Counted from the stretch's first letter, positions 4,943 to 32,237 are shown. The stretch: 64,000 nucleotides of DNA from a virus (IMGVR_UViG_3300047476_000792:1-64000), one strand, 5' to 3'. Made by a program: numbers and translations. The notes: a model not told the origin generated them from the sequence alone.

Positions 4943-5115
4943 AATATCAACCCCCTTTCAACCTAGAGATTTATGAACTAGGTGGGTGGCATAGCATAGA
5001 TGTTATACAAGAATTAGAGGATGCACTTTATATTGCATCCTCTTTTTGTAATAGTCTTGAAGGTTTACCAGAAGAAAGGGTTCGACTAATAGATAACAAT
5101 AATAAAGTTATCTAA
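4939..5115 (+). CDS. small hypothetical protein, 58 aa (possible)
   Basis: The frame starts by a perfect ATGA overlap with the preceding kinase gene and ends four bases into the convergent minus-strand gene. It encodes an acidic 58-aa protein with no recognised motif (begins MKYQPPFNLEIYEL). A strong terminator-like hairpin lies within it, which would cut its message about two thirds of the way through. Either a small gene with an internal attenuator, or a chance frame over the operon's 3' end. Confidence 0.4.
   Translation: MKYQPPFNLEIYELGGWHSIDVIQELEDALYIASSFCNSLEGLPEERVRLIDNNNKVI
5016..5047 (+). terminator. probable rho-independent terminator
   Basis: Perfect 10-bp stem AGAGGATGCA / TGCATCCTCT with an 8-nt loop, followed by a short T run, just where the plus-strand operon meets the convergent minus-strand operon. 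It overlaps the 58-aa frame at 4939. Confidence 0.6.
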
Positions 5116-5654
5116 ACAGTCCAAATCACTTTCTCAGAGTAGGGATTGGAAAATATAAATTTATTAGAAGTAAAGGATTTTCCGATTAAATCGGTTTCCA
5201 GATTTGTATAATATTTTCCAGTTCCTTTTTTTGCATAAAAAATTGTCGTATGTGGTTGGTAGTTCGGATAGGAGTTTCCAGGACAATCTAGTTCGGTTTT
5301 CACTTCTTGATGTAAATCGTGCAAATCCTTAGAAAGTATATCAAACTTCACAACATCAAATTTCTCATTTTCGAATAAAGAGATACCCTTAAATTTAAAT
5401 CTGCAAGGTCGTAAATTTATTGCATTATAGACATCATGCGGTTTATAACTCGGATCGATACCGTAGATCACAGTTCCATGTGTTTCCAATTCGATACCGT
5501 GTCCTGGTTCGTCGTCATATACATCACACGGACATATGGCTTCGTGAAGCTCTGTCATCTCTTCCGATAAGAAAGACATGTCTAGCATGAGGCATGACCA
5601 ACTTCTTATTGCAGAACCCTCTTCTATTATTTTATATAGTTCATCTAATTTCAT
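5112..5654 (-). CDS. 2H phosphoesterase (Acb1-like) with capsid-targeting-like N-terminus
   Basis: A 180-aa protein with the two HxT motifs of the 2H phosphoesterase fold: ETHGTVIYGI (H59, T61) and QPHTTIFYAK (H135, T137). Spacing and length resemble phage Acb1 (T4 57B), which hydrolyses cyclic nucleotide signals of CBASS immunity; LigT/CPDase-type RNA end processing is an alternative. Residues 1-13 (MKLDELYKIIEEG) match the N-terminal peptide of the next three genes and carry an (I)xE site suited to the T4-type prohead protease. It overlaps the neighbouring ART-like gene by four bases. Fold call strong; cyclic-nucleotide substrate inferred. Confidence 0.78.
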   Translation of the reverse strand: MKLDELYKIIEEGSAIRSWSCLMLDMSFLSEEMTELHEAICPCDVYDDEPGHGIELETHGTVIYGIDPSYKPHDVYNAINLRPCRFKFKGISLFENEKFDVVKFDILSKDLHDLHQEVKTELDCPGNSYPNYQPHTTIFYAKKGTGKYYTNLETDLIGKSFTSNKFIFSNPYSEKVIWTV

Positions 5655-6874
5655 TGTATAATTCTTTTCATTTCTATAACATCTTCGGGTGGTATGCGAA
5701 TTTCCCGCTCGGCTACGAGGAATTCGGAAGCATTCGTAGTTTTTATACGAGCTTCTACAATTCCTATATCACTGTAATCTATCTTAGAAAGCTTTTCAAC
5801 CCACTTATCTCCTTGTGTGTCCATAAACACAGGGTTTCGATAGACTGGAGAATCCATATACCACAGTGCAGTTAAATAAAACTCAATAGCATCTGCGGAA
5901 CTTTTCGGAGGAAACTCGCTACCCTTACGCCTTTTATACTGTTTTACAGTATTCTCAAAATTCGACGTTTCAGTGTTAGCAGAATACTTTTTAATATAAT
6001 CTATGAGTTTATCCATTCTATATTTTCCATTCGCAATAAGCCACATATGCTTCAGTGCAATCATTATCGATTGGCAAATATGTAAAGACAGAGAGAAGCT
6101 TATATCTCCTTTATAAGATGCTCCACCCAAGCCTCCTTTATCCGTTTTTGTATATTCTTTTTGAAAACCATTTTGAAATATATTTTTTATATCTATAGAT
6201 GCATGGTAGGCAATTTCTTCTTCTTGTAGATCTTCGGGGCGGAAGTTTCTTGAATCGTAATATTCACCTCTATTCCATTTGGTTAGAGTATTTATACGTT
6301 CTACGAATTCCTTAACCTCTTCTGTTTTATTTACTACTTCCTTTATTATAGCGAATATAGGAAGGAGACGATCCAATTCTTCAGCAGTAAATCCATAACC
6401 AACAGCACGATTCTCAAATTCAGTTATATTGTTTATTATATTTCTTAATGAATAGTTACTTTTTTCTTTGTCCAATACATCTATTATATCTCTTAGGATA
6501 TTCGGTATATATTCCGATATAAGCCTATATCTAAAATTTCCATCAGTAGATTCTCTAGCCATCTTTAGATAATTATCATAGTTAGCAAGCTCTTTACTGA
6601 ATACCGTTCTATATATATTATCTTCGAACATTCTGTTATGAAGTTCCTTGACAGACTTTATAAAATATGAATCAATATCCAATGCATCGATATCATTAGA
6701 AATAAAATCTTCTTCTTGGAGAATCTTCTGTATGAATTGTTGAGTCAATGCGCCTATCTCTTTAAGCTTCTTACTAATAATATTAAATCCATTTTCATAT
6801 GATTCAGCCGGAAGTTTGGCCTCTTTTATGATATCCAAACGAATCAATGATTGTAATAATTCTTGTAGTTTCAT
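5651..6874 (-). CDS. ADP-ribosyltransferase-like protein with capsid-targeting-like N-terminus
   Basis: A 407-aa protein. The first 19 residues (MKLQELLQSLIRLDIIKEA) look like a capsid-targeting peptide with a gp21-type site IKE|A. Residues about 25-220 are helical with no recognised family. The C-terminal half resembles an ART fold: IAYHASIDIKNIFQNGF, GGLGGASYKGDISFSLS, and VAEREIRIPPEDVI, which could supply the H/R, S-x-S and E positions. T4 Alt is a packaged ADP-ribosyltransferase with such a tag, so a similar injected enzyme is plausible. ART assignment rests on motif reading alone. Confidence 0.55.
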   Translation of the reverse strand: MKLQELLQSLIRLDIIKEAKLPAESYENGFNIISKKLKEIGALTQQFIQKILQEEDFISNDIDALDIDSYFIKSVKELHNRMFEDNIYRTVFSKELANYDNYLKMARESTDGNFRYRLISEYIPNILRDIIDVLDKEKSNYSLRNIINNITEFENRAVGYGFTAEELDRLLPIFAIIKEVVNKTEEVKEFVERINTLTKWNRGEYYDSRNFRPEDLQEEEIAYHASIDIKNIFQNGFQKEYTKTDKGGLGGASYKGDISFSLSLHICQSIMIALKHMWLIANGKYRMDKLIDYIKKYSANTETSNFENTVKQYKRRKGSEFPPKSSADAIEFYLTALWYMDSPVYRNPVFMDTQGDKWVEKLSKIDYSDIGIVEARIKTTNASEFLVAEREIRIPPEDVIEMKRIIQ

Positions 6875-7263
6875 AAAATCTCTTCTTCTACGGATATATA
6901 CTCTGGTGGTATGGCTTTGAATGCTACATAACTAAATCCATCGAATACTATATTATATATATTCATACTATTCACAGGAATAGCCACCTTTAACATAGTT
7001 AGCGACTCATCTTCATCATATTCATCTCCTAACCAGTTCATAAGTGCATCCTCTGCCGTATCTTTATCCTCGAAAAGATATATAGCATCTCGGTCTTCTC
7101 CTATTTTGTTGGAACGCTCCCCTATTGCTGGAACCAGCCCCTTTCTCATAATACTTGGAAGATTTTCATGTCTAGTTATATGAAAAAACTCCATTTTATC
7201 TATGGTTTCTTCCTTTATAGTTATCGGTATATTGATTAAATCAAACAGTTCTTGTAGTTTCAT
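6871..7263 (-). CDS. small ART-fold protein with capsid-targeting-like N-terminus
   Basis: A 130-aa protein starting MKLQELFDLINIPITIKEE, whose first seven residues are nearly identical to the neighbour and whose IKE site falls at the same residue (18). The rest reads like a compact ART-fold domain: FFHITRHENLPSIMRKGLVP (His plus the typical helix after strand 1), AIYLFEDKDTAED (Tyr region) and KAIPPEYISVEEE (final strand and Glu). This pattern recalls DarT/KptA-like H-Y-E ARTs. It overlaps the larger ART-like gene by four bases. Target (DNA, RNA or protein) unknown. Confidence 0.6.
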   Translation of the reverse strand: MKLQELFDLINIPITIKEETIDKMEFFHITRHENLPSIMRKGLVPAIGERSNKIGEDRDAIYLFEDKDTAEDALMNWLGDEYDEDESLTMLKVAIPVNSMNIYNIVFDGFSYVAFKAIPPEYISVEEEIL

Positions 7264-7265
7264 AA

Positions 7266-8099
7266 TTATCCCCCACTTGCAAATATTCTTGCATTATTTT
7301 CCATACGGGATGCAACTCCGCTTTTAGCTTTTTTAGCTTTTTCGTATTCCTTATTCGCAAGGTATTCTTTTGCTGCCTCTGGGAATTTACGACTCTTTAG
7401 CAAGAGTCGTGCCTTCGGAGAACCTGATAAATCCCCTCGGAAATAACCATCAAGAATAGCTATTTTCATATTTTTAGAAAATTTATTAAAATCTGCACCG
7501 AAATGTCTCTGGATAAGTGCTAATTTATTCTTTATATCGACCCTAAATATATCTTCTATTTCAGAATCAGTTAAGGTTTTTCCTTCAAACTTCTCCACTT
7601 CTTCAGGCTTTACGAGATGGCCAATGCCTATAGTTAAATTACCATATATATCTTTGTACATGGTATTATAGACACCTTCATGCTTCTTTATATATTTAAA
7701 GGCATCGCTGATAAAATCATCCGTTTTTATTTTTTCTGGATATTTTATAGTAGATAAATCTTGAATAAATTTATCTGTCAAAGGTGTTTCTTGTTTGGTT
7801 GCCGCTTTTGGAAACTCTATTTTACTAATTTGTTTAATAAGAGCATCCACCAATGGCGTAGCCATCTTCTTCGGAACCTCTTGTTGAATCGCTTGTAAGG
7901 TCTGTGGAGGAGTCTCTTTAGCCTTCTGTGTTACTATCTCTCGGAGCTTCGGTATTGTATAGTTATAATGCGTCACACCTAGCAAAAGAGCCATTGCAAT
8001 AAGACTTCTAGGATTCTGTAGATAACTTAAAACCGACTCTTCTATAATATCTGAATCACTCATATCAGTTAGTATATTATAAAGCTCATTAAATTTCAT
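7266..8099 (-). CDS. T4-type lysozyme (GH24) with tag and hydrophobic N-terminal segment
   Basis: A 277-aa protein. The C-terminal domain is a T4-type lysozyme: KKHEG, MYKDIYG and LTIGIGHL give E141, D150 and T156, the same spacing as T4 E11-D20-T26. It hydrolyses peptidoglycan. Ahead of it are a capsid-targeting-like peptide (MKFNELYNIL, with DIIEES at 17-22), a hydrophobic stretch at about 32-50 (SLIAMALLLG) and a linker. ATG at 8099 is preferred over one nine codons upstream because a late-type promoter (TGTAAATA, 5 nt, ATG) sits directly before it and its N-terminus aligns with the three downstream genes. It may be a virion-borne lysozyme rather than a free endolysin. Confidence 0.85.
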   Translation of the reverse strand: MKFNELYNILTDMSDSDIIEESVLSYLQNPRSLIAMALLLGVTHYNYTIPKLREIVTQKAKETPPQTLQAIQQEVPKKMATPLVDALIKQISKIEFPKAATKQETPLTDKFIQDLSTIKYPEKIKTDDFISDAFKYIKKHEGVYNTMYKDIYGNLTIGIGHLVKPEEVEKFEGKTLTDSEIEDIFRVDIKNKLALIQRHFGADFNKFSKNMKIAILDGYFRGDLSGSPKARLLLKSRKFPEAAKEYLANKEYEKAKKAKSGVASRMENNARIFASGG

Positions 8100-8112
8100 A
8101 ATACTATTTACA
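8100..8112 (-). promoter_or_regulatory. late-type leaderless promoter for the tagged lysozyme operon
   Basis: Minus-strand TGTAAATA (8112-8105) is followed by GTATT and the ATG at 8099. The same bases read on the other strand supply TTTACA, the -35 element of the divergent plus-strand promoter. Confidence 0.5.
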
Positions 8113-8152
8113 AACAAAAAAGACATAACTAAATAACATAGTTATGTCTTTT
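8107..8152 (+). promoter_or_regulatory. sigma70-like promoter with palindrome across the -10 box
   Basis: TTTACA (8107-8112), a 17-nt spacer, TAAATA (8130-8135), then 8 nt to ATG 8144. A perfect 14-bp inverted repeat (arms 8118-8131 and 8139-8152, 7-nt loop) is centred on the -10 and includes the start codon in its right arm. It could be an operator; read on either strand as RNA it also resembles a terminator hairpin with a T run. Confidence 0.5.
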
Positions 8153-8365
8153 CTACCTCGTTCTGTTCTTTATTTCAGTCTAGCAATTGTCGCATCTGTA
8201 TGGATACATGGCTGTTGGTCTGTTGTAAATCATTCCATTGATAAATATCCCCTAGAAGTTAAACCAAAATCTAATCCTGGTCTTTTTCTATTTCCATCAA
8301 CTCCGAATCTTCTACCACAGCAGAATTTTCAAAAGAACTTATCCTACTCAGTGGATCGGGAGTAA
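8144..8365 (+). CDS. small membrane protein or lipoprotein (possible), 73 aa
   Basis: A lone plus-strand frame inside a minus-strand region. The first 25 residues form a hydrophobic segment with Leu/Val/Ala (SVLYFSLAIVASVWIHGC), possibly a signal anchor or a lipoprotein signal ending at Cys. It is supported by a promoter with the same geometry as other genes here. Against it, its last 95 bases lie antisense over the end of the phosphoesterase gene. Being beside a lysozyme, a spanin-like role can be imagined but nothing proves it. Confidence 0.4.
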   Translation: MSFLPRSVLYFSLAIVASVWIHGCWSVVNHSIDKYPLEVKPKSNPGLFLFPSTPNLLPQQNFQKNLSYSVDRE

Positions 8366-9068
8366 CATCCACAAGTTCATTGATGTCGAAACATCTGAAC
8401 CATGTTCCGTTGATGTATGTAGATGTAGATACGTGAAAGTGTCCGTGCCATAAAATAGATGGATTTATATGGTTATATAGAAGACTTATATTTTTCCGCT
8501 CTTTTATTAAATCTTCTCTCAATGCAGGATCATTCTTCAGATACCATGCAATATTAGAGAATCCGTCATTTGGTGGTGCTTCAGTTGGGCAGGAATGTGT
8601 TACAAGTATATCAGCTTGTGGTAGTGTTTCATAGTCATCTCGAAGAATGAACGTTTCGTCCACCCAATAATCCTGATTTACATCCCGCCGAGTCCTGTCA
8701 ATAGAAGTAGCACCTCCGACAAATAATACAACCTTACCATTTATTTCATAGTAGGTGTAATCGGGAACAAATGTAATTCTTTTGTATTTCGCAGTCCAAT
8801 GATTTGGTTTATAAAAAGATGGATTAGAATGATTCCCTCTTACTATTAAAATATCTCCATCGTTCTCTTCACAGTATTTCTCTAAACAATCTAGATCAAA
8901 TTCATCTATAAATCGCTGATTAAATCCTTCTCCCGCATCACCACAATGAATAAGAACAAAATCTTTTAAATTATAATGCTTTATCAAACTCTCGAAATCG
9001 AGAGAATGGGTGTCTCCGAGAGCGTAAACATTCTTTTTGTTATACTGTTTGATATTATTTAAATGCAT
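8271..9068 (-). CDS. calcineurin-like metallophosphoesterase
   Basis: A 265-aa metallophosphoesterase with all metal-ligand motifs in order: LGDTHS (D-x-H), HCGDAGEG (GD), VRGNHSN (GNH), VTHSCP (H) and WHGHFH (GHxH). It should coordinate two metal ions and hydrolyse a phosphoester; substrate unknown (nucleotides or nucleic acid are common for phage members). It starts overlapping the preceding gene by 14 nt. Confidence 0.85.
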   Translation of the reverse strand: MHLNNIKQYNKKNVYALGDTHSLDFESLIKHYNLKDFVLIHCGDAGEGFNQRFIDEFDLDCLEKYCEENDGDILIVRGNHSNPSFYKPNHWTAKYKRITFVPDYTYYEINGKVVLFVGGATSIDRTRRDVNQDYWVDETFILRDDYETLPQADILVTHSCPTEAPPNDGFSNIAWYLKNDPALREDLIKERKNISLLYNHINPSILWHGHFHVSTSTYINGTWFRCFDINELVDVTPDPLSRISSFENSAVVEDSELMEIEKDQD

Positions 9069-9540
9069 CTTTCTGCCTTTTAACTGTCTCTTCCTCAGAC
9101 TCCCATATATGTAACGGCGAGTTCTGATAGAACTTTACATCGGCTTCTTTTTTCTGCAACACCTTTTTTAAAAAGTCTTGCATATTCTGCCCCTTTTCGG
9201 TGATCATCGGAGTATTAATGATAAGTTCTTGAAGAACTTCGTAAATATTATAACGTTTCCAAAACATGTCATGAAAACGCTCATTAGTTTCTTTTTCAGT
9301 AACTATTGCCTTCTTCTCTTTGACAATATCTATTAGTCTTCCGGTGTCATAATCACCTTCCCATTTAAAACGAGTCAGATTAATTTCATCATCATCAAAT
9401 CCTAAATCTTTAAGTTTAAACTCTTTAATCAAAAGACTCTTACGTATTTGTTCGGGAATTTGAGATACATCCGTCATGAATGCGGTCATCTGCTTTGATA
9501 CTTTATTGAAAAGTATATAAATTTTATAGTCCTCTTCCAT
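9055..9540 (-). CDS. hypothetical protein, 161 aa
   Basis: Not recognised. A charged 161-aa soluble protein, lysine/glutamate-rich in its second half (MQDFLKKVLQKKEADVKFY), tightly packed between the HAD protein and the metallophosphoesterase (one-base gap and 14-nt overlap). Likely translated with both. Confidence 0.65.
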   Translation of the reverse strand: MEEDYKIYILFNKVSKQMTAFMTDVSQIPEQIRKSLLIKEFKLKDLGFDDDEINLTRFKWEGDYDTGRLIDIVKEKKAIVTEKETNERFHDMFWKRYNIYEVLQELIINTPMITEKGQNMQDFLKKVLQKKEADVKFYQNSPLHIWESEEETVKRQKDAFK

Positions 9541-9541
9541 A

Positions 9542-9895
9542 TTATGTTAATCTCTTTCCGGTATTAGGCTCTACCGCAACCGCTCTATCGTCCCAAAATT
9601 CATACATTGCAGAATATTTTATACAAGTAACTTCAAGTTCTTGGCCTAAGTGTTTCTTACACCACATTTTAATAGCTTGCTCTGCTTCAACTTGTTCATT
9701 TATAGGATGATCTGGTGCGACTCTTGCAGTGAAAATCTTAACGAGCTTGCCCTCAGATAACCACTTCTTAACACGTTCCACCATTTCAGGAATAGGTTCC
9801 CCTAATGTAGAAGGGGAAACCCATTTTTCATATGTAGCAAGAGTTTTATCAAAATCTACACCTATATATCCCTTTTGTTTATATCTTCTCGCCAT
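9542..9895 (-). CDS. HAD-like phosphatase
   Basis: A 117-aa HAD-superfamily protein: GVDFDKTLA (DxDxT nucleophile motif), VKIFTAR (motif II Thr) and YEFWDDRAVAV (acidic motif). At this size it lacks a large cap domain, like phage HAD proteins related to the 3'-phosphatase part of polynucleotide kinase. A DNA/RNA 3'-phosphatase working with the kinase and ligase at 2.3-4.9 kb is a reasonable inference, not shown. One base separates its start from the stop of the upstream 36-aa gene. Confidence 0.75.
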   Translation of the reverse strand: MARRYKQKGYIGVDFDKTLATYEKWVSPSTLGEPIPEMVERVKKWLSEGKLVKIFTARVAPDHPINEQVEAEQAIKMWCKKHLGQELEVTCIKYSAMYEFWDDRAVAVEPNTGKRLT

Positions 9896-9896
9896 T

Positions 9897-10007
9897 TTAT
9901 TTCATCAACTCATCTATCAACTCATCTATCAACTCTAAAATTATTTCAACTATATACCACATACAGAATGCTACAACTGCAATGGATATATAATTGATAA
10001 TATTCAT
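9897..10007 (-). CDS. 36-aa membrane protein with tandem ELID repeats
   Basis: A very short frame begins by ATGA overlap with the upstream gene and ends one base before the HAD start, so it is coupled on both sides. Residues about 4-24 (INYISIAVVAFCMWYIVEII) form one transmembrane helix; the tail is LELIDELIDELMK, encoded by a 12-base unit repeated in tandem. A single-pass micropeptide; function unknown. Confidence 0.55.
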   Translation of the reverse strand: MNIINYISIAVVAFCMWYIVEIILELIDELIDELMK

Positions 10008-10255
10008 AAAACTTCGACATTCTTCTCATCAGTTATATCGAATATATAACAATCAAAGTCACGCGAATCTAGTATTTGACCGACTATATATTCTGCCATG
10101 TCCATGTACGAAATTCCATCTGGAAAATCGTCCACACTCCAACCAAAACAATTCTTCTCATTTGAGAGAATACTTGCAACAGCTTCAACTTCATTCTCTG
10201 CCGTTATTATTCGGCACCAGTTATCAGTCAAATCAAATAAAAAATATTTTCTCAT
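10004..10255 (-). CDS. hypothetical protein, 83 aa
   Basis: Not recognised. An acidic 83-aa soluble protein (begins MRKYFLFDLTDNWCRIITAE) with alternating strand-like and helical stretches. It overlaps the 36-aa gene by four bases and follows the DUF5662 gene by three bases. Confidence 0.65.
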   Translation of the reverse strand: MRKYFLFDLTDNWCRIITAENEVEAVASILSNEKNCFGWSVDDFPDGISYMDMAEYIVGQILDSRDFDCYIFDITDEKNVEVL

Positions 10256-10258
10256 AAA

Positions 10259-10717
10259 TTAGAAGTATTCCTTTACAGTATTTTCGAAAATCTTCACTAG
10301 TTGTGGTGACATATTAAATCTCTCCGCATTTATCTCGATAGATTTTCTGATGTTACCGTTTTTATTCCGCGAAGTTGCAGCTTTCCAATCTGCCAGCATT
10401 TCTAACAAATCCACTAAATTCATATCATCTATTCCGTTTTTATGAAATTCTGGATGATGTCGATTGTTGGCATAGTGGTGGTCAATTGCAGGTTTGACTC
10501 GTTCTAATAATTTCTTATATTCATCAGAACCATACTCTACCTTTGCAAGTTCTTCGTGGGTTTCCCCGAAAATCTCTTGCTCTGGTGATTCCAGTTTAGA
10601 CTGGTCGTGCTCTCTTGCTCGTTTATCTAACTCAGAGATAAACTTGTAAATATTTCCCCTAACAACATGGATATGCTTAATAGTATCCATGTTACTTTTT
10701 ATCACTCCATCATTCAT
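10259..10717 (-). CDS. DUF5662-like phage protein
   Basis: A 152-aa protein resembling the DUF5662 family found in many phages. Recognisable segments are DTIKHIHVVRGNIYKFISEL, REHDQSKLESPE, AIDHHYANNRHHPEFH and LVDLLEMLADWKAAT. The conserved His/Asp pattern suggests a metal-binding helical fold; the family has no known reaction that I can state. It lies three bases downstream of the VWA gene. Confidence 0.72.
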   Translation of the reverse strand: MNDGVIKSNMDTIKHIHVVRGNIYKFISELDKRAREHDQSKLESPEQEIFGETHEELAKVEYGSDEYKKLLERVKPAIDHHYANNRHHPEFHKNGIDDMNLVDLLEMLADWKAATSRNKNGNIRKSIEINAERFNMSPQLVKIFENTVKEYF

Positions 10718-10720
10718 AAA

Positions 10721-12739
10721 TTATAGATATTCTTTAGTTTCCTTGGTATTGATTACAAGACCATCATACTCAAAACTATCAGATTTCTCTACATCAGAGA
10801 ACCATGAATTGGTAATAATAAGGAAGAACTTCATTGATGAAACTTTCTGAGAAAGTAGGTCAACGGTATCTTCAATACCTTCGAGAGTCTTCTGACAGTA
10901 TTCGACAAACGTCTCAGTGCCAAGGGATTTGAGCATCTCATTATATTTCTCGAAAAGAGGCCAACAAATATTATCACCAACATTAGGCTTGCCTTTCTTT
11001 TCAAACTTTTCATATGACTTGCTCGCAGAAATAGTTGCAGCGCCTTTTAGCTGTGCAGTAAGTTCCAAGAAAGGAACAAAGTCTGCATTCTCATCCTTTG
11101 GTTTATATTCTGATTTCGGCTTAAATCTCATCAACGAATCAAGCCCCATTTCATCAAGAAGTTTTGCACCTTCTTCTCCATAATTCTGGACACGAAGATC
11201 GACAAGATTCTTCTGCTTAGAATTAGCCTTAATATAGAAACGGAGAACACTCGCATGTGCTTTTTCTGCAATAAGAGTTTTATAGACAGATGCAAAATCT
11301 TTAATACTGACAGTTTTTTGATTTTCATCAAAAAGATCAATCGCTTCAGCAGGTTTGATAGTATAACCTCCTCCATTTGAGGGGTCGTCAAATTCTAAAC
11401 TAATAGTATCATAGTTGAAATCACCATTAGCAACAAACATATAATTTCTAAAGGTAGGCGCTTCGATAGGGAATGTAATTGGATTTGTTGCAGTTTTATT
11501 ATAATCTTCTACCCTCTGTGCAAGGTCCAAATCATTAATACCTTCAAGGTTTCCATTACGAACCGTTAGGAATGAAATATTCGCACGGTCTTCATTTCCG
11601 GTAATACCTACAATCTTTGCATGGGTATCAATAGTTTTGAACACTACCTTACTAGCATCGGTTCCTGCGCGTGTAACGGCTTTGTATGGGGAATATGCGA
11701 GGTTAATAGCGACCTTCCCAAGATTATCCTTAATGGATTTTACAAAGGATTCGAGAGAAACCGTATTTCCAACTTCAGATTTAGTAATCACACCGCCCAC
11801 AAGCGCAAGATCTTTAAGTTTATTTTCGGCATTACCTTTCTGAGCAACTGTAAAAGATTTCTGAAGCATCTTAGAATTAGGAAGATCGCCCGCAGTTCTA
11901 AGAACCTTCACACCAAGACTTGCCTTAGTTTTCTGACTAAGAATATATGCAAGAGAGTAGACAAATTTACCATCAGTGAGTTGTTCAGCCGGAAGATTAT
12001 CAAGTTCATCATAATCAATCGCAAAAAGTTCACCTTCTTTGTCAGTCTCTTGAACTTCTACAGTCTTATCCTTGCGAACAAGTGGAATAATTTCTGAATC
12101 CGTGACTTGCCAAATAACATCGTAGCACTTCTCAAGCTGAACAACTTTGGTAGTTTTCTTAGACTTGACTAAAGTTTCACCACTCTGTTTAAGTTGGGTA
12201 TAATCTGAAATATGATTGAAAACACCGTTGAGGGATTCGGTCATATCAAGCAGAAGACGACGGTTATAGTTACTTCCATAACCTACCACCGTCTTAGAGG
12301 AGAACTTAGTAGAAAGAGCCTTACAAAGTTTCAGAGTATCGGATTCGTTATTGTAATGATTTGCATAACCATCGCTAAGGAAATAAAATACAGAATTCGT
12401 GTTTCCTGATGTAAGTTTAACATCATCGAAAATACGAGTGTTTAATTCTCCAAGAGAATCATTAAAATTAGTCATTCCTCGGGAAGAAATCTTAGTATTG
12501 ACAAGTGCAAGGATATTTTGGGACTTTTTAAGTCCCCTTACAAAGAAGTCGAAGTCATTATGACTTGAGAAAGTTGCAACCGTAATTGTGTCGGTTTCGT
12601 GCATGTTTTCTACGACTGCTTTAACCGTTTCCTTTAAAGCCGAAACCGAGTTCCAAATGGAACCACTATTGTCAATTAGGAGGAAATAATCTGTCGATTT
12701 TACTGATGCTTCTGAGTTTTTTGGAATATTAATTTTCAT
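10721..12739 (-). CDS. von Willebrand factor A-domain protein, 672 aa
   Basis: A large protein whose N-terminal 200 residues form a VWA domain with an intact MIDAS: FLLIDNSGSIW (DxSxS, residues about 20-30), SRGMTNFNDS (Thr) and FYFLSDGYAN (Asp). VWA domains bind ligands through a metal ion. The remaining 470 residues are not recognised and look like several alpha/beta domains. A sigma70-like promoter (TGGACA, 17 nt, TATATT) precedes it. It may be an adaptor in an AAA/VWA-type assembly, but no partner is evident nearby. Confidence 0.78.
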   Translation of the reverse strand: MKINIPKNSEASVKSTDYFLLIDNSGSIWNSVSALKETVKAVVENMHETDTITVATFSSHNDFDFFVRGLKKSQNILALVNTKISSRGMTNFNDSLGELNTRIFDDVKLTSGNTNSVFYFLSDGYANHYNNESDTLKLCKALSTKFSSKTVVGYGSNYNRRLLLDMTESLNGVFNHISDYTQLKQSGETLVKSKKTTKVVQLEKCYDVIWQVTDSEIIPLVRKDKTVEVQETDKEGELFAIDYDELDNLPAEQLTDGKFVYSLAYILSQKTKASLGVKVLRTAGDLPNSKMLQKSFTVAQKGNAENKLKDLALVGGVITKSEVGNTVSLESFVKSIKDNLGKVAINLAYSPYKAVTRAGTDASKVVFKTIDTHAKIVGITGNEDRANISFLTVRNGNLEGINDLDLAQRVEDYNKTATNPITFPIEAPTFRNYMFVANGDFNYDTISLEFDDPSNGGGYTIKPAEAIDLFDENQKTVSIKDFASVYKTLIAEKAHASVLRFYIKANSKQKNLVDLRVQNYGEEGAKLLDEMGLDSLMRFKPKSEYKPKDENADFVPFLELTAQLKGAATISASKSYEKFEKKGKPNVGDNICWPLFEKYNEMLKSLGTETFVEYCQKTLEGIEDTVDLLSQKVSSMKFFLIITNSWFSDVEKSDSFEYDGLVINTKETKEYL

Positions 12740-12753
12740 ATAAATGAGGCTTT

Positions 12754-12782
12754 AATATAGCACACTTGTTAGGCATTGTCCA
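12754..12782 (-). promoter_or_regulatory. sigma70-like promoter for VWA gene
   Basis: Minus strand: TGGACA (12782-12777), 17 nt, TATATT (12759-12754), then 14 nt to ATG 12739. Its leader, about 7 nt, is a little longer than for other promoters here. Confidence 0.45.
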
Positions 12783-12783
12783 G

Positions 12784-13017
12784 TCAATTTTTCAACAAAA
12801 AACTCTCCTGTAAACTAGCAATGACCAAACTTTCGACATTTTTAGTATCATACGAATCTACTTCAAATAATCTAAACTCTCTACCAATTCGCATCAATCT
12901 TTCTTGGAATAAACTATCCTCCCATTTCGGAGTTTTGAACTTTTCTGAAAAATTACTATTATGGTGTGCTATGCGTTTTGCACAATGTTTAATATACTCT
13001 CTTCCTAAATCATTCAT
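12784..13017 (-). CDS. hypothetical protein, 77 aa
   Basis: Not recognised. A helical, charged 77-aa protein (begins MNDLGREYIKHCAKRIAHHN). It ends in the gap before the VWA promoter and is one base from the following upstream gene. Last gene of its operon. Confidence 0.6.
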   Translation of the reverse strand: MNDLGREYIKHCAKRIAHHNSNFSEKFKTPKWEDSLFQERLMRIGREFRLFEVDSYDTKNVESLVIASLQESFLLKN

Positions 13018-13018
13018 C

Positions 13019-13282
13019 CTAAGTATTCAAATTCTCCGCTGTCAATTTCCAACATTCCGCCTTCAACTTTAAATAAATTAATAGAACATCTTCATCAGAT
13101 TCTCTATGGGATCTTTCACTAATACACTCCGCACAAGCATATATGATAGAATCTGTATATTCTTCTGTATCAAGATATAAAGAATCTCTTGACATCCATG
13201 ACATAACAGCGGGCTCGGAAATATCATATTCATCAAGAATACGTTTTATTTCGGGAAGTGTTTGAATTCTTCGAGCGAGCAT
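13019..13282 (-). CDS. hypothetical protein, 87 aa
   Basis: Not recognised. An 87-aa helical protein with several Cys (YACAECISERSH, KAECWKL). ATG at 13282 is chosen over an in-frame TTG two codons upstream; it lies 2 nt after the stop of the upstream gene. Confidence 0.6.
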   Translation of the reverse strand: MLARRIQTLPEIKRILDEYDISEPAVMSWMSRDSLYLDTEEYTDSIIYACAECISERSHRESDEDVLLIYLKLKAECWKLTAENLNT

Positions 13283-13284
13283 AA

Positions 13285-13509
13285 TCAATAAATCAATTTT
13301 TTATCGGTCATAACCTCTTCTAATTCACGACACATTTCTTGAATTTGTTTGTTCTTAGAATCTAGATATAACCGTAATCCGCCAAATTTTATTTTGATCT
13401 GTAATATTTTAAAATTAGGATCAATTTCCTTGACATACTCCAAAAATTGATCAAGAACAGTATACCAAACACTCGGCGTAGGATTTCCTAATCCCCCCAC
13501 CCATACCAT
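13285..13509 (-). CDS. small phage protein, 74 aa
   Basis: A 74-aa protein with the segment IKIKFGGLRLYLDS and a C-terminal charged helix ending CRELEEVMTDKK. The 'kFGgLR' arrangement occurs in small conserved phage proteins of unknown function; that similarity is from memory only. It overlaps its upstream neighbour by 22 nt. Confidence 0.6.
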   Translation of the reverse strand: MVWVGGLGNPTPSVWYTVLDQFLEYVKEIDPNFKILQIKIKFGGLRLYLDSKNKQIQEMCRELEEVMTDKKLIY

Positions 13510-13691
13510 TTTTCAGGAACACAGTCTTTCCATTTTTCTTTAGCTTCTTTGTATAGCCTTTCCTGCTCCTCCAAAGTCTTATCCATATCAGTAGATTTTC
13601 CTGTCCGAAAATCATAAGGATTTACATCCTCAGGATAATAGGAATCGGGTGCTAATTTAAATGTTTTGATCAATTCTTGTGCTTTGTTCAT
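13488..13691 (-). CDS. hypothetical protein, 67 aa
   Basis: Not recognised. A hydrophilic 67-aa protein with a Lys/Glu-rich helix (LEEQERLYKEAKEKWKD) and aromatic C-terminus (WYGWGD). The last seven codons overlap the next gene in another frame. Confidence 0.55.
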   Translation of the reverse strand: MNKAQELIKTFKLAPDSYYPEDVNPYDFRTGKSTDMDKTLEEQERLYKEAKEKWKDCVPEKWYGWGD

Positions 13692-13692
13692 A

Positions 13693-14169
13693 TTATTCTG
13701 CTATTACAATACTATACCGTAAATGTTTCACGGGATCAACCCAATGTACTGCATCATACGGAAAATCTATATATTGGCCCGATTTATCATAGAGTTTTTC
13801 TATTCCCCCATTAATTTCACACACTAAACCATCACAATCACTATCCGTCAATGTAATTAAATGAAGTTTCCTAATTGAATATGCATCACGATGGGGAGCG
13901 ATGAAATCAGTAGGTTCATATCGCTGAACCTGTATAAAATCATACATATATTTCAAATCAGGATCAAAATCGGCATCAGCAAAAACAGCATCCTTCATCT
14001 CCTGTGTCATATCGCAACATTTTAAAGTTGTAAACCTTGAACAAACACCGGGAATTAATGATTCGTGCGCATCATCGCCTTCACGGGGTTTGAATAAATG
14101 TAAATGGTTATTAATATGTTCCATAATCTCTGGAACATTTCTAATGAAATTTGGAATCGTTTTGATCAT
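13693..14169 (-). CDS. 2OG-Fe(II) oxygenase
   Basis: A 158-aa dioxygenase of the prolyl-4-hydroxylase-like type. PHRDAY gives the HxD iron ligands, VHWVDPV the distal His, and LRYSIV the Arg that binds 2-oxoglutarate; QVQRYEPTDFIAPHRD is the usual run-in. Phage members are thought to hydroxylate proteins or nucleic acids; substrate not evident. ATG at 14169 is preferred because upstream in-frame residues overlap the neighbouring gene and do not look like the family. Confidence 0.82.
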   Translation of the reverse strand: MIKTIPNFIRNVPEIMEHINNHLHLFKPREGDDAHESLIPGVCSRFTTLKCCDMTQEMKDAVFADADFDPDLKYMYDFIQVQRYEPTDFIAPHRDAYSIRKLHLITLTDSDCDGLVCEINGGIEKLYDKSGQYIDFPYDAVHWVDPVKHLRYSIVIAE

Positions 14170-15057: not shown

Positions 15058-15392
15058 AATTCTTTATTTTCATTTTTATTACCAATCAATTCGTATGAAG
15101 AATCGGGATAAAATATAACCGGAAAATATATACACTTATGGAGATATTCTTTTCCAACCCCCTTTATACGCACCAAATCATTTATATATAATAAATTATC
15201 ACTATTATCCCGTTGACCAATTGAATACTCTATCTCGTATTGTTCCGAAACATCTTTAGGATTCATCCAACAGCCATGAACGGTAATATCTACCTCAAAA
15301 GGTTTCCCATTATGATCAACCCAAACATAAGTTTCCCATTCCCCCTGTTTAAAATATTTATTATTTTTCTTATCCCAAACTCTATATTTCAT
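15042..15392 (-). CDS. YopX-like protein
   Basis: A 116-aa protein with the YopX layout: KYRVWDKKNNKY at the N-terminus, SIGQRDNSDNLLYINDLVRI in the middle (the 'tGl.D.ngk.IyegDiv' region) and a beta-rich end. YopX proteins are common in phages of Firmicutes and others; function unknown. A second member is at 42979. The start overlaps the upstream stop as ATGA. Confidence 0.7.
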   Translation of the reverse strand: MKYRVWDKKNNKYFKQGEWETYVWVDHNGKPFEVDITVHGCWMNPKDVSEQYEIEYSIGQRDNSDNLLYINDLVRIKGVGKEYLHKCIYFPVIFYPDSSYELIGNKNENKELWESL

Positions 15393-15919
15393 AACTTCTT
15401 AACATTCTTTGCTTCAATTTCAAATAATTCATCAGTTAAATATATTGTCCATGCACTCTTGAGTGTAAGATTATTTAAATTTTCACTAAGTTTTAGTATA
15501 ACATGCGATCCTGCACTTTTAAAGGATGGACTTTCACCTTCATTATAGTAAGAATAATACCAACCATTTATTCTTGTTCCTGTTTGGACGGTCCTCTTTT
15601 CAACTACCTTATAAGTTTTACCTACTAATGACAAGTCTTTCTCTGTATAAATATTCCTATTATTTCCTCCCCATCCTAGATCTTGTAGTTTATAGCGGGC
15701 AATTGCGGTAACGATTTTATCATAGAGGATATTATATTCTTTTCCATGACCATTAATACCCATTCCATCCAAAAGATTATCTATATTCTTTACATCATCC
15801 TTTGTCATATGATTTCGGATGACCAGTTCTGTATTAAGTGGATATCCACATCTTAAAAATTTCTCAGGATTAGTAATCTCTACAATATCACCAACTCTTA
15901 TAATATTTCTTTTACTCAT
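15389..15919 (-). CDS. hypothetical protein, 176 aa, SH3-like N-terminus
   Basis: Not firmly recognised. The N-terminal 30 residues (IIRVGDIVEITNPEKFLRCG) read like a small beta-barrel SH3/KOW-type module, and a second IYLTDELFEIEAK strand pair closes the protein. Lies between YopX and the metallophosphatase genes. Confidence 0.6.
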   Translation of the reverse strand: MSKRNIIRVGDIVEITNPEKFLRCGYPLNTELVIRNHMTKDDVKNIDNLLDGMGINGHGKEYNILYDKIVTAIARYKLQDLGWGGNNRNIYTEKDLSLVGKTYKVVEKRTVQTGTRINGWYYSYYNEGESPSFKSAGSHVILKLSENLNNLTLKSAWTIYLTDELFEIEAKNVKKL

Positions 15920-15921
15920 AA

Positions 15922-17220
15922 TTAATCGAAATAGAAGTGTAAAAATTCGTTAACGCCTTCCTCCCCGACGACCAAACACGACTGTCTCGGACGTGATCTA
16001 TATCCTGAATTATCAGAATGTCTACAACCACCGACTAGTGTTGAGAACATATACATTTCGACATTAGTCAGTTCAGCACTCTCCATATGGTGTTGATCAC
16101 CTGAACAGTAGTATAACCGCTTCGCATTTCTCATTTGCTCTGGTTTTGCCATAAAGAGGCTGTTTAAATAATTCTCTCTTCCTGCTCCAGGGGCGGGTAA
16201 TCTACTTCTGGAAGTAGGAGCATATCCGTGATCAAGTAAGAATAAATTCGATCCTATTTCGAAAGTTAAAAATCTTTTGGATGTTATTTCGAACGTAAGT
16301 CTCTTATCGTCTTTAAAATAAATCGAAAGCATTTTAAGAAGGAAATAATCACCAAAACTTGAATGATTTCCAGGTACAGCAACGATACGAATATTACCTA
16401 TGACACTTAGTAGTGTTTGTATAAAGCATAAGACAGAATTGTATGCTTCCTCTAATTGGTCCTCTTTTAAGGGATGGGCTTCTAACTTAGTACCTTTATC
16501 AGTAAAACCATCAAGCCCGTGAAGGATGTCCCCTAAAAATGCAAGTGTTACTCGTTTGTAGGGATGTCCTCGTTCAACGATATGAGATACTAATTTTTCT
16601 GCATATCTTTCGACTGATTCCTTAGTTTTCTCTATATTCCATTCTTTTTGGTTATACAAGTATCGTTCACTTGCTACTAAACCATAGTGCCAATCAGAAC
16701 AACCAATTACCAATTCCTTATCACCAGTCGGTTTGTATTCAACCTTTGTCGGAACGTATTTAGGAGGATTCCAACTTTTTAAAGTATTATCAAATACCTC
16801 TTTATAATTATGATTGAAAAGTCTCCAATTCTCTGCATCCGCAATAGTCTGTTTCCAATCTCGTCTTTCAAACTTTTGCTCAATGTTTGCCCTTTTTTCA
16901 AGGAGCAAATCTGATACCAAACTCTCTGGCTCAGACTCCTTAATTTTTTCATCAGTATAAGGAATAGAACTATGATTAATTCCTAGCTTTCTAATTACAT
17001 ATTCGATAACCTTTTTGGGCGTGCTTGTTCGTTGTGCAATCTCGCCCGCAGTAAATGGTGCTTTATCGAAATTAGAATAAAGTTTTAAAATTGTATCTAT
17101 TTTTGATTCGTCTAAGACATAATTTCTTCCTACTAATTCTTCAGTATGAAAAACATATTTCCGATCAGTGTAGTTAAATGTATAACCGCTATCTTTGAGT
17201 GTTTCTTTTGTTGAACTCAT
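15922..17220 (-). CDS. metallophosphoesterase with N-terminal winged-helix region
   Basis: A 432-aa protein. Residues about 35-80 resemble a helix-turn-helix module (TAGEIAQRTSTPKKVIEYVI), followed by a linker and a calcineurin-like domain from about residue 165: IGCSDWHYG (DxH), LGDILHGLDG (GD), VPGNHSSFGD (GNH) and YCSGDQHHME (GDxH). Similar phage proteins are annotated as DNA-repair exonuclease or metallophosphatase. ATG at 17220 is chosen over two upstream Met codons because they would lie inside a palindrome and the -10 region of the gene's own promoter. Confidence 0.82.
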   Translation of the reverse strand: MSSTKETLKDSGYTFNYTDRKYVFHTEELVGRNYVLDESKIDTILKLYSNFDKAPFTAGEIAQRTSTPKKVIEYVIRKLGINHSSIPYTDEKIKESEPESLVSDLLLEKRANIEQKFERRDWKQTIADAENWRLFNHNYKEVFDNTLKSWNPPKYVPTKVEYKPTGDKELVIGCSDWHYGLVASERYLYNQKEWNIEKTKESVERYAEKLVSHIVERGHPYKRVTLAFLGDILHGLDGFTDKGTKLEAHPLKEDQLEEAYNSVLCFIQTLLSVIGNIRIVAVPGNHSSFGDYFLLKMLSIYFKDDKRLTFEITSKRFLTFEIGSNLFLLDHGYAPTSRSRLPAPGAGRENYLNSLFMAKPEQMRNAKRLYYCSGDQHHMESAELTNVEMYMFSTLVGGCRHSDNSGYRSRPRQSCLVVGEEGVNEFLHFYFD

Positions 17221-17257
17221 GTGTGTTGTACTTAACATACAACACACATGATATCAA
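17217..17257 (-). promoter_or_regulatory. sigma70-like promoter with palindrome across the -10 box
   Basis: Minus strand: TTGATA (17257-17252), 17 nt, TAAGTA (17234-17229), 8 nt, ATG 17220. A perfect 14-bp inverted repeat (17217-17230 and 17238-17251, 7-nt loop) brackets the -10 and contains the start codon in one arm. Same design as at 8107, 53985 and 60710. Confidence 0.6.
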
Positions 17258-17264
17258 TAGCAAG

Positions 17265-17966
17265 TTAAAAAACTCCTGGACCTTCTAAATTGTTTTCTAC
17301 AGAAGGGCTGACTAAACCTCTAGTATCTCTACCAAAGTGTTGTTTCAATAATCTAAACACTTCTACAATATTTTGATCATTAACATCTGCAATATTTATG
17401 TTCATACTGGGTGAGCCGTATAACAGCGCATTTATAATTATACGCACCCAATATACTCGCTTGCCGTTATCCAGACGTTCTTCTTCAGGAAGAGAATTAA
17501 AATATTTAATTTTATCTTTTATAGACTTTCCTTTGATTTTAGGCTGTTCTGTCCATTTACTAGCAAGTCCTTCATATTTATCCATCACCCATTCGACAAA
17601 GCCTAAAATAGGTAAAATCTTTTTAGTCTTTTCGAAATAATCTGCAATCATTTCAAATGGTATCTCTCTTTTATCTACACGAAGTTTGAGATTATGAACA
17701 TCTTTAGAATCTTTATTGAAATATAATGCACGAATAGCCAATTTAGCAAGTTCCATCTCCTCTGGGAATACAGGCTTTTCTGGCATGGTAGGCATTGGTT
17801 CTTCTATATCCCCGGAGAGATCGTCAGGATTATCCCCAGGAGAGTCCATAGGCCCAGCAGAAGACTCTTCAGGCGAGCCAGTTTGTTCTTCATCATCTGT
17901 AGGAGGTTTTGGTGGACCTGCCTCTATGATAAGATTATATATATATTTGTCGAATTCTGAGATCAT
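17265..17966 (-). CDS. tagged protein with proline-rich disordered region
   Basis: A 233-aa protein starting MISEFDKYIYNLIIEAG, a capsid-targeting-like peptide with an IIE|A site at residue 15. Residues 17-75 are acidic, Pro/Ser/Gly-rich and probably disordered (PPKPPTDDEEQ). Residues about 75-230 look globular and helical and are not recognised. It lies one base downstream of another tagged gene, suggesting both are late head-associated products. Confidence 0.65.
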   Translation of the reverse strand: MISEFDKYIYNLIIEAGPPKPPTDDEEQTGSPEESSAGPMDSPGDNPDDLSGDIEEPMPTMPEKPVFPEEMELAKLAIRALYFNKDSKDVHNLKLRVDKREIPFEMIADYFEKTKKILPILGFVEWVMDKYEGLASKWTEQPKIKGKSIKDKIKYFNSLPEEERLDNGKRVYWVRIIINALLYGSPSMNINIADVNDQNIVEVFRLLKQHFGRDTRGLVSPSVENNLEGPGVF

Positions 17967-17967
17967 A

Positions 17968-20490
17968 TTATTGTTGTGGAGATGCTAATAATTGTGCAAC
18001 CGTTGTCCATGCCTTCGGATCTTTGATAGATTGTTCAAGATTTTTAAAATTTTTAGGATCTGCCATATGTTGCCTAAATCCTTCTATATTGTTAGGGTCG
18101 GATTGAAATAACTCGAATGCAGTCGGATCATTTAAAATAGCCCCGTAATCGAGAGGTTGACTAGAAGTTCCAGTAGGAGTTTTGGATGCGGTCGGTCCTT
18201 TAGAGAATTGCATTTGCACACCTCCTGCGACCTTTTTAGGTGCCGTAGAAGATGAATTTGCTGAAGGTGAAGTTCCTGCACCTCCTCGTTGAGAGAGGCC
18301 CCCTTGTCCCATATTGCCCAATCCTTCTTGGAATATCTTCTTAATAAATGCATCAAACTTAGTTGTCATATCTCTATTTATACTAGATAAATCCAATTCC
18401 ATTTGACCTTGTTTTTTTAAATCTTCATAATCAGAAGGCGGTATCAACTTATTCAATATATCTTCTAAATCAAATATAGTTTTGACACCTTCTAGATATT
18501 CGTGTTCGAATTGATCACGTAAATCGATGAGTGCCTTAGTAGAAGATGATATTATTCCATGATCTATTATATAATCTAAAGTTTCTTGATTTATTGAAAT
18601 ATCTATTTTTAATACAGGCTTTCTGCTTTTTGTACTCTCATTTCTAAACCAGAAACCGCCAACACCTGCCGTCCCTCCAAATTTTCGAGGAGTCATTTGC
18701 TCAGGCACACATATAGAAAGAGAAAATAAATCAAAAGAAATATCATCTGGTAGCTCGTATTTCTTTTCTACGAATCTACCTAGCTTATCGTAAATTTCAT
18801 AAGTTAGAGAAACTATGTTATTGATTTGTTCCATAGGACCGACCAATTCTCTAACATATCCGCCATATCCAGCTTCTATCTGTGGAACAAACGAAGGAAT
18901 AATGAATTGTCCTAATTCATCTTCTGTATTTCCTTTTTTCTCAACAAATGTCTGTAAATCTTCGACTTCTTCTTGTGCGGCCTTTTCGTATTCCACATCA
19001 TAAAAATCACAGATAGTCTTATTCATAAGCATTCGAAGCTCTGTAAATCCGACTTCTTCATCCATATAAGCCTCCCCTACAAAATTAGTCAATATTTTAA
19101 CAAAATAATCTTGTACATCACTTCGTAATTTCTCGTCACGAAAATGTCCACCATCTTCTGGACCATAATATTCACCATAATCGTGAGCACTAAAGTGTTT
19201 ATCAATAACAAAGTGGAGTTTATCATCTTCTCCTATGCTAGCATATAATGTGTCTTCTCTTTCCCAGCCATATCTAGTAGGTAACGATTTTTTAATTTCC
19301 ACAGACCCCCACTTTGGAGAGCTTTTTATTTTTTCTAAAATATTACCTGGAATGATATATGCTAATTTTAAATCCGATCCGTTAATATCGTATTCTATAT
19401 CAAAGTAATCCCCAAAAGAATCTAAACCAAATACGTATTCATAGATAGGATCAGGATTGAACTCATCCCGCTGTTCATCCCACCAATGTTCTTCTTGTTG
19501 TTCATAACTTCCCCTTACATCGTCTTCCCAATCACTCTCATCTTCTTTGTTATGTTCGTATGATATATCTTTACCCCAAATATCCTTAATGGTTTTATCT
19601 ATTTCAGTACCCCAATCCTCGTACGAACCTCCCCGAAGAGTTAAAGTATTTTCCCAATCTATATTTGAGGTGTCTTGGCGCTTCGCCCAATCTATGACTT
19701 GGGTTTTAAAATCTTCAGCCATTGTAAATTTATTATTTTTATAAACCTTCAATGACGGAACTGCTAAAGAGTTTCCATCTTCATCATAAACACTTCTTAT
19801 TCTTATACGAGCTTGTGGAATTATACCGTCTATACCTCTGGCAGAATCTTTAAAAATTTCATCTTTTTGTAAATCATCGATTTTTTGTAAATCTTCCTCT
19901 GTTACTACATATGCAATTCCAGCATTTAAACTAGCATCTGCAAGAGCACAGTAAAAATAATCATTTCCTTCTGAATGGCACGAAGTCCATTGATGGTCAC
20001 TCATTCGTACAACATCTATAGGCATTCTGGAATATATAACATAATATGAACTCTTTTGTGCATCCAAATATGCTTGTTGTAAATTCGTAACTTTCAACAA
20101 TTTATCAATATTTCCTAACTGATTCTGGAAACCTAAAATGGTATAATTGTCTATTTCGGATTTATTCGTAGCATCTTTAATATATCTCTCTATAGCCTGC
20201 TTTCTCTGACTTAGTAACTTTCCAATTCGTATTGGGTTTTTCTTATCCTTATCAGTTATTTTATATCCTATCCATTTTTCAAAATCCAATTCATAATCCT
20301 CTATTATGCTATTGCGTATTTTATCATGATATTCGGATACCTTTTTCATAGGTTCAACTATACGTTTTTTATCACCAAATATATGATCAAACGGTGCCAC
20401 GCCTTGCAAAAAAGCAGGAATTTTATTTGCCACATTATAAGACACCTCCTGTAAAACTAATTTATTTTTAACAAAATCTTTGAAATTCAT
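17968..20490 (-). CDS. large tagged protein of unknown function, 840 aa
   Basis: Begins MNFKDFVKNKLVLQEVS, a capsid-targeting-like peptide with an LQE|V site. Residues about 145-215 contain a segment with conserved-looking RMPIDVVRMSDHQWTSCHS and YVVTEEDL; I cannot name the family. Later parts include an acidic middle and a Gly/Ser/Thr-rich linker near residues 735-790 before a helical C-terminus. ATG at 20490 is preferred over upstream Met codons because GATAAATA stands 5 nt before it and this start aligns the tag with the other tagged proteins; an ATG at 20514 has an AAGGA eight bases upstream and remains possible. Confidence 0.7.
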   Translation of the reverse strand: MNFKDFVKNKLVLQEVSYNVANKIPAFLQGVAPFDHIFGDKKRIVEPMKKVSEYHDKIRNSIIEDYELDFEKWIGYKITDKDKKNPIRIGKLLSQRKQAIERYIKDATNKSEIDNYTILGFQNQLGNIDKLLKVTNLQQAYLDAQKSSYYVIYSRMPIDVVRMSDHQWTSCHSEGNDYFYCALADASLNAGIAYVVTEEDLQKIDDLQKDEIFKDSARGIDGIIPQARIRIRSVYDEDGNSLAVPSLKVYKNNKFTMAEDFKTQVIDWAKRQDTSNIDWENTLTLRGGSYEDWGTEIDKTIKDIWGKDISYEHNKEDESDWEDDVRGSYEQQEEHWWDEQRDEFNPDPIYEYVFGLDSFGDYFDIEYDINGSDLKLAYIIPGNILEKIKSSPKWGSVEIKKSLPTRYGWEREDTLYASIGEDDKLHFVIDKHFSAHDYGEYYGPEDGGHFRDEKLRSDVQDYFVKILTNFVGEAYMDEEVGFTELRMLMNKTICDFYDVEYEKAAQEEVEDLQTFVEKKGNTEDELGQFIIPSFVPQIEAGYGGYVRELVGPMEQINNIVSLTYEIYDKLGRFVEKKYELPDDISFDLFSLSICVPEQMTPRKFGGTAGVGGFWFRNESTKSRKPVLKIDISINQETLDYIIDHGIISSSTKALIDLRDQFEHEYLEGVKTIFDLEDILNKLIPPSDYEDLKKQGQMELDLSSINRDMTTKFDAFIKKIFQEGLGNMGQGGLSQRGGAGTSPSANSSSTAPKKVAGGVQMQFSKGPTASKTPTGTSSQPLDYGAILNDPTAFELFQSDPNNIEGFRQHMADPKNFKNLEQSIKDPKAWTTVAQLLASPQQ

Positions 20491-20503
20491 TAAAATATTT
20501 ATC
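20491..20503 (-). promoter_or_regulatory. late-type leaderless promoter
   Basis: Minus-strand GATAAATA (20503-20496) followed by TTTTA and ATG 20490, matching the T4 late core TATAAATA in seven of eight positions. It would drive the long minus-strand operon toward 17 kb. Confidence 0.45.
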
Positions 20504-23772: not shown

Positions 23773-23775
23773 AAT

Positions 23776-32222: not shown

Positions 32223-32237
32223 ACTATAATATTTACT
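32223..32237 (-). promoter_or_regulatory. late-type leaderless promoter
   Basis: Minus-strand AGTAAATA (32237-32230), then 7 nt and ATG 32222. Back to back with the plus-strand promoter of the uvsY operon. Confidence 0.45.

Follow-up and report, generated by a model that had tools for sequence, protein, structure and literature searches.

The stretch analysed here, IMGVR_UViG_3300047476_000792:1-64000 ("the window", 64,000 nucleotides (nt) in full), is part of a 90,402-bp IMG/VR virus record (G000) and encodes, on its minus strand, seven proteins that begin with the same kind of short amphipathic peptide closing in an (I/L)xE site, hereafter the tag, which the original prediction had read as a T4-type capsid-targeting sequence on "seven or eight" proteins. 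Seven of these starts (5654, 6874, 7263, 8099, 17966, 20490 and 32222, all minus) do open reading frames (ORFs) with the N-termini quoted in that prediction, and thus stand, whereas the weak eighth match at 29272 (ISE/G; a slash marks the predicted cut throughout) was dropped, as it has no late octamer and its site is not kept: the positional counterpart in relative C begins MTSVDAFFSKCMRELMKYG and does not have it. The features are listed below, with lengths in amino acids (aa).

5112-5654, minus strand: cargo 1, 2H phosphoesterase, Acb1-like, 180 aa; tag MKLDELYKIIEE/G at 5654-5619
5651-6874, minus strand: cargo 2, 407-aa protein; tag MKLQELLQSLIRLDIIKE/A at 6874-6821
6871-7263, minus strand: cargo 3, small putative ADP-ribosyltransferase-fold protein, possibly DarT/KptA-like; tag MKLQELFDLINIPITIKE/E at 7263-7210
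7266-8099, minus strand: cargo 4, phage lysozyme, 277 aa, opening an operon of four genes; tag MKFNELYNILTDMSDSDIIEE/S at 8099-8037
8105-8112, minus strand: late-promoter-like octamer TGTAAATA of the 8099 gene, lying 13 nt ahead of its start
17265-17966, minus strand: protein 5, conserved, acidic, 233 aa; tag MISEFDKYIYNLIIE/A at 17966-17922
17968-20490, minus strand: protein 6, acidic, 840 aa; tag MNFKDFVKNKLVLQE/V at 20490-20446
18325-18369, minus strand: internal second tag of the 840-aa protein, MTTKFDAFIKKIFQE/G, residues 708-722
20496-20503, minus strand: late-promoter-like octamer GATAAATA of the 20490 gene, lying 13 nt ahead of its start
31602-32222, minus strand: protein 7, basic, 206 aa, with a C-terminus rich in Arg/Lys; tag MTENFDRFIRKILAE/S at 32222-32178
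32230-32237, minus strand: late-promoter-like octamer AGTAAATA of the 32222 gene, lying 15 nt ahead of its start

G000 itself is a fragment without capsid genes, which two contigs of the same sample (G001 and G002, 99.996-100% identical to it across the overlaps) extend to a 98.3-kb composite, and to which a further contig found via a scan for the large terminase (TerL), G008, adds 62 kb through 100% identity over 4,594 bp at the composite's end, so that the tagged set was counted in about 160 kb in total, a composite built on exact overlaps between separate metagenome contigs. The core of the phage is T4-like, its polymerase and gp23 being only ~30-32% identical to those of isolates, and, judged by these sequences, it is a large, uncultured, divergent T4-like phage. 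It is referred to as A where compared with its relatives B (G003 + G009), C (G006/G004/G014) and D (G010).

The N-terminal tag and its conservation

In 7 out of 7 window proteins the amphipathic N-terminus (a hydrophobic residue, two residues, a hydrophobic pair) ends in (I/L)xE, a motif that is uninformative by itself, being frequent by chance; the signal is in the hydrophobic spacing, the position and the conservation. A strict pattern taken from the window's seven proteins was found in 9 of 524 ORFs outside the window and at none of 1,839 internal methionines (p = 1e-6), and a looser one, derived from T4 IPIII and gp24 only (hydrophobic at 3-5, two residues, hydrophobic pair, hydrophobic-x-E), in 97 of 963 start candidates vs. 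66 of 2,122 internal methionines (p = 2e-14), neither pattern having been fitted to its test set and the choice of start being free within the first 35 residues. By a pattern drawn up after the data had been seen, the motif is kept in 25 of the 35 orthologue pairs where A has it, as opposed to 4 of 222 otherwise (p = 1e-22). The N-terminal hydrophobic moment of tagged proteins is higher (p = 1e-4). Regex hits at 13693, 29882 and G008 55455, as well as the sheath protein, were dropped as false or unsupported.

The tag is retained in three divergent relatives, and identity at the third positions of its codons (0.46 and 0.36) is lower than at positions 1 and 2 (0.79 and 0.59), with 91 of the 189 same-residue codon pairs differing synonymously; as the third positions vary, selection acts on the peptide. 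Two classes of tag differ in their DNA and have the same spacing, which equals that of the T4 capsid-targeting sequence (CTS), where residues 4 and 7 are the main determinants of targeting and residues 8 and 10 those of processing (PMC9026906), as in the N-terminus of T4 IPII/IPIII, MKTYQEFIAE/A. A third N-terminal class, DLxxIYE/N or DLxxIYE/S, is seen on proteins near TerL and gp21 (G008:9368, G008:15276, G002:2368, G010:61950 and G009:291) and is kept between relatives.

Searching the rest of the genome, as the original prediction had suggested, yielded two more tagged proteins in G000 and eight in G008, bringing the set of this virus to about 17:

G000 83109-83546: tag MTPEFDQFCESLIRE/Y, beside the tail tube gene
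G000 85470-86123: tag MNYNELFRSVLLE/L
G008 7877: tag MNFKELTEHIVVKE/A, the least typical of the 17
G008 24470: tag MTEKFDEFVYNLLHE/G
G008 38203: tag MTQLFDNFISKIIKE/N
G008 45533: tag MTKLFNEYVSNILE/K
G008 45927: tag MKFEELYNTLLLE/K
G008 47915: tag MKFEELYKIYTLLE/S
G008 48602: tag MNFQELYNLIHE/S
G008 49634: tag MNFQELYDILINE/D

That the domains behind the tags are unrelated, as had been claimed, held when the 17 proteins were compared by blastp with their first 22 residues removed, the best pair having an E value of 0.019. Most have at most one recognised domain; domains recorded outside the window are GNAT, NUDIX and GP88, and NUDIX and ART-PolyVal (ART, ADP-ribosyltransferase). The G008 7877 protein has a glycine-rich loop, a lysine and a D-x-H-x-G-N motif in common with relative D; its kinase-like reading found no support in Pfam or the PDB. 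The relatives have sets of similar size, with ~17 in 85 kb of D and a run of about eight mostly MTxxFD genes in C (G014 45098-49947), and tagged proteins of relatives reach up to 1,187 aa.

The cargo and the tag as a separable module

Cargo 1 has two H-x-T motifs, invariant in 6 relatives, and its profile matches Acb1 best among PDB entries (7t26, E 1.4e-4); the Pfam matches to 2_5_RNA_ligase2 (5.6e-5) and Acb1 (0.0017) are both below cut-off, and, as the Acb1 family score is 18.5 bits vs. the 27 required, the protein is called Acb1-like only. Its tag is retained in B and C. For cargo 2, family, profile and homology searches returned no family and no phage homologue; its C-terminal part is possibly ADP-ribosyltransferase-like by eye, a hint that an unconvincing alignment with ART-PolyVal proteins did not take further, and a single-sequence AlphaFold model was discarded (predicted local distance difference test score, pLDDT, 39). 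Cargo 3 matches DarT1 (E 0.001) and KptA (E 0.013) in profile searches against the PDB over ~30-residue stretches, with no Pfam family above cut-off, while cargo 4 is above cut-off for Phage_lysozyme (2.1e-7) and matches the phrog_7 endolysin (4e-14), its orthologues in B and C being tagged MKFEELYNLVLE and MKFDELFHLVVE, respectively. Within the operon, the 7263 gene follows the 8099 gene after a 2-nt gap, and the 6874 and 5654 genes then follow via overlapping stop/start codons.

Protein 5, for which profile searches gave no family match, has counterparts beginning MKSEFESYIHRILFE/Q in B and MSNFDLYISKLFLE/A in C, and the counterpart of protein 6 in B begins MNFKSFINGKKVIE/E. The domain of protein 7 (isoelectric point of the mature part 9.4) is common to tagged proteins of B and C, and in B there is a 61-aa version consisting of the tag and the basic tail alone.

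The tag, as far as sequence comparison goes, is a separable module. Bacillus phage homologues of cargo 3 align with it only at residues 23-124 (44-45% identity), and an untagged SIOphi homologue starts MILYHVTTDESL, at the domain boundary, exactly past the tag. The lysozyme and 2H genes adjoin in B and C, and in A the tagged 6871 and 5651 genes sit between them; as the cargo 2 gene is absent from B and C, it is an insertion between the two. In D, a domain related to residues 154-337 of the 840-aa protein stands behind another tag, MTDSFKLFLE/A. Tags also occur inside proteins: the part of the 840-aa protein that bears its internal tag is a separate gene in C, starting MTQFDSYVKKIMEE/G, and the G008 38203 protein likewise has an internal ..SFTNFVNTVLTE/S. 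Cleavage at such an internal tag would free two proteins from one precursor.

Other genes of the locus include one at 30373-31116 for a short protein similar to the ATPase domain of TerL, in addition to the full TerL (570 aa) encoded in G002/G008; the TerL of relative C (L023:3784-7281) has 1,165 aa vs. 570, with an intein-like insertion, and the primase of the phage (G000 83545-85467) is also interrupted by such an insertion. A von Willebrand-like protein (phrog_2426) is encoded at 10721-12739, with similar-looking genes at the same place in B and C, and nucleotide-sugar and glycosyltransferase genes at 22849-25688 and 46608-55363 suggest glycan modification.

Prohead protease, capsid site and late octamers

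The original prediction hinged on the full genome encoding a prohead protease of (I/L)xE specificity, and proposed a search for gp21 and gp22 homologues; both turned up on G008, which carries a gp21-type protease (15514-16200, Peptidase_S77 E 3.1e-18, above cut-off), a gp22-like scaffold (13165-14055) and gp23 (11530-13140, E 8e-91). Peptidase_S77 (PF03420) had no match in G000, G001 or G002 because these are fragments without the capsid region. In gp23, a conserved pro-region, closing in the site, is followed by a hypervariable stretch and the conserved mature part, and the pro-region ends in LLQE/A, LIQE/T, MVQE/A, VIQE/N and LIQE/T in five relatives, from which alignment the specificity of the protease would appear to match the tag. 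The protease itself starts with an invariant KLIVE, the gp22-like scaffolds with MxxELxxIFE, and a conserved small protein, whose gene lies between those of gp21 and gp22, with MTxxFDK; given the latter two starts, the same kind of helix is present on core proteins.

Late-promoter-like octamers resembling TATAAATA precede the genes for the protease, scaffold, tail and fibres by 13-17 nt, and the operon heads 8099, 20490 and 32222 carry one as well. In a degenerate form, whose definition was set after examples had been seen (a point to be held against the argument), the octamer precedes 39 of 69 motif starts, 125 of 541 other ORFs and 26 of 1,860 random ATGs (enrichment p = 3e-8), while the exact octamer was not found at the same place at the core replication genes examined. 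This supports, at the level of sequence, late expression of the tagged genes together with the head genes. Since only 13-17 nt separate the octamer from the start codon (late genes of G008, G009, G010 and G014; 8099 and 20490 in the window), late mRNAs may be nearly leaderless.

Probable capsid targeting, its alternatives and its reach

Taken together, the shared N-termini are very probably T4-type capsid-targeting sequences that load cargo into the head for injection. The tagged proteins would be made late, together with the head genes; the amphipathic tag would bind the gp22-type prohead core, the gp21-type protease would cut after hydrophobic-x-E, the motif that also closes the gp23 pro-region, and the freed cargo would be packed along with the DNA and enter the host upon infection, where enzymes such as the Acb1-like phosphoesterase and the ADP-ribosyltransferase-like proteins would, most likely, counter immediate defences or modify proteins of the host, with the lysozyme helping entry. 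Of the original claim that the phage packages injected effectors, the tags, their conservation, the late octamers, the protease, the scaffold, the capsid site and the separable domains are in place, and it is from these that we infer core binding, cleavage, packaging, injection and the targets of the cargo. Several observations pull the other way: the site is followed by any of many residues (A, G, S, E, V, Y, N, K, L, D); the C orthologue of the 840-aa protein keeps ..LFSE/ and not the usual targeting half, and the tag of the kinase-like G008 7877 protein is without the second hydrophobic residue of the pair; the sheath protein passes the regex too, so some hits are false; internal operon genes have no octamer; and both tag cleavage and virion location are here deduced from sequence.

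Among the alternatives, the one to be taken most seriously, unlikely as we consider it, is that the tag leads to the prohead core for assembly, not injection, the tagged proteins being extra components of the core or scaffold that, as the head matures, either remain inside or exit: those at 83109, 85470, 17265 and 24470 are found in most relatives, and several of them are small, basic or acidic like T4 core proteins, yet many tagged proteins vary among relatives, B and C can do without the inserted genes 5651 and 6871, and the enzyme domains (lysozyme, GNAT, NUDIX, ART-PolyVal, 2H) have no assembly role. That the N-termini instead address proteins to the tail, baseplate or membrane, with (I/L)xE being incidental, is improbable: some tagged genes do adjoin tail genes (83109, by the tail tube gene) and amphipathic helices are able to bind membranes, but the hydrophobic-x-E end is conserved in orthologues and in all 52 distinct stand-alone 2H relatives discussed below, the gp23 pro-region closes with the same site, and the spacing is that of the T4 CTS.

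Conservation of the 5' gene ends as DNA, i.e., as recombination or promoter modules, would account for neighbours having their first 12 nt in common (e.g., ATGAAACTACAA at 6874 and 7263) and for gene islands being swapped among relatives; with codon positions 1 and 2 kept while the third diverge, 91 of 189 pairs differing synonymously, and two tag classes unlike in DNA and alike in spacing, we regard it as highly improbable. As for a chance resemblance chosen by eye, the (I/L)xE motif is indeed weak, and of the eight proposed starts one (29272) failed, but the out-of-window, internal-methionine, T4-derived and orthologue tests all contradict it, leaving it a next to negligible probability.

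Capsid targeting of this kind is not a new mechanism, as the T4 CTS and internal proteins (Ips) are a direct model (PMC9026906, PMC9958956, PMC12373910) and the CTS has been proposed to let T4-like phages load various proteins (PMC9026906). The CTS of IPI, IPII, IPIII and Alt is likewise a 10-20-residue N-terminal peptide with hydrophobic spacing and a hydrophobic-x-E site, acting with a gp21-type protease and a gp22 core on unrelated cargo that has only the leader in common; T4, however, has three Ips and Alt, with at least 10 Ips reported in related phages (PMC12373910), whereas here there are about 17 tagged proteins in one genome of a divergent lineage, enzyme-rich and with tags also within fused proteins. 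The P1 Dar system (DarA, DarB, Hdf and others) is a comparable set of head-packaged anti-defence proteins, and for DarB the first 30 residues are enough for packaging (PMC9024508), but Dar proteins are without the common N-terminal consensus that the present set has. In phiKZ/SPN3US, the prohead protease also cuts after glutamate (A-x-E, S-x-E), and ejection involves many proteins (PMC5694885), although their inner-body/ejection propeptides are mostly >100 residues long, with another motif and in another head lineage. Injected polyvalent proteins (Iyer et al. 2017, PMC5512222) have ART, GNAT, kinase-like, lysozyme and peptidase domains too, several per giant protein as opposed to mostly one per tagged protein here; the tagged proteins would work like them and do not belong to them, most having no more than one known domain. 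Cargo 1 has the 2H fold signature and both H-x-T motifs in common with its best PDB profile match, the Acb1 phosphoesterase, which acts against CBASS (cyclic oligonucleotide-based antiphage signalling system), and differs in being below the Pfam Acb1 cut-off and in carrying a predicted packaging tag.

Relatives of this 2H enzyme occur on at least 425 viral contig stretches, the best 80 of which (L120-L199) were surveyed for tags. Among these 80, 19 are parts of large proteins, fused in proteins of 600-1,150 aa, and 52 of 52 distinct stand-alone copies have hydrophobic-x-E between start and domain (shuffled segments in the same test: mean 23, maximum 34); an untagged copy is that of Maribacter phage Molly_1. 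Two 635-642-kb phages, LR745206.1 and LR756502.1 (L094 and L095), have 28 and 34 MK(H/Y)LKK(F/Y)NES-like starts, vs. one each in the reversed control, with many of the real sites in tandem gene islands, and the gp23-type proteins of both have ..INE/N early in the sequence, which is no more than suggestive of another packaging-tag dialect that would again match the phage's own capsid site.

It is, in our judgement, evenly balanced whether large tailed phages in general use hydrophobic-x-E tags as a packaging code, in dialects that each lineage has matched to its prohead protease, so that every genome would preload dozens of enzymes, among them, in hundreds of phages, Acb1-like anti-CBASS phosphoesterases, to act before host immune signalling starts. 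No earlier report of a packaged Acb1 or of tagged huge-phage proteins was found in the open-access literature, although one may exist elsewhere; as a precedent, phiKZ has Tad1, an anti-CBASS/Thoeris protein that is injected (PMC13282480). What is new is that the lineage is divergent, that the set is large and rich in enzymes, that tags also lie inside proteins, and that an Acb1-like enzyme has a predicted packaging tag across many phages. If true, virion-delivered proteins would be readable from the genome via the tag and the matching capsid site, uncultured phages included, many large-phage proteins without a known function could be ranked as injected effectors or anti-defence enzymes, and the Acb1-like enzyme would be predicted to arrive with the DNA rather than be made after infection.

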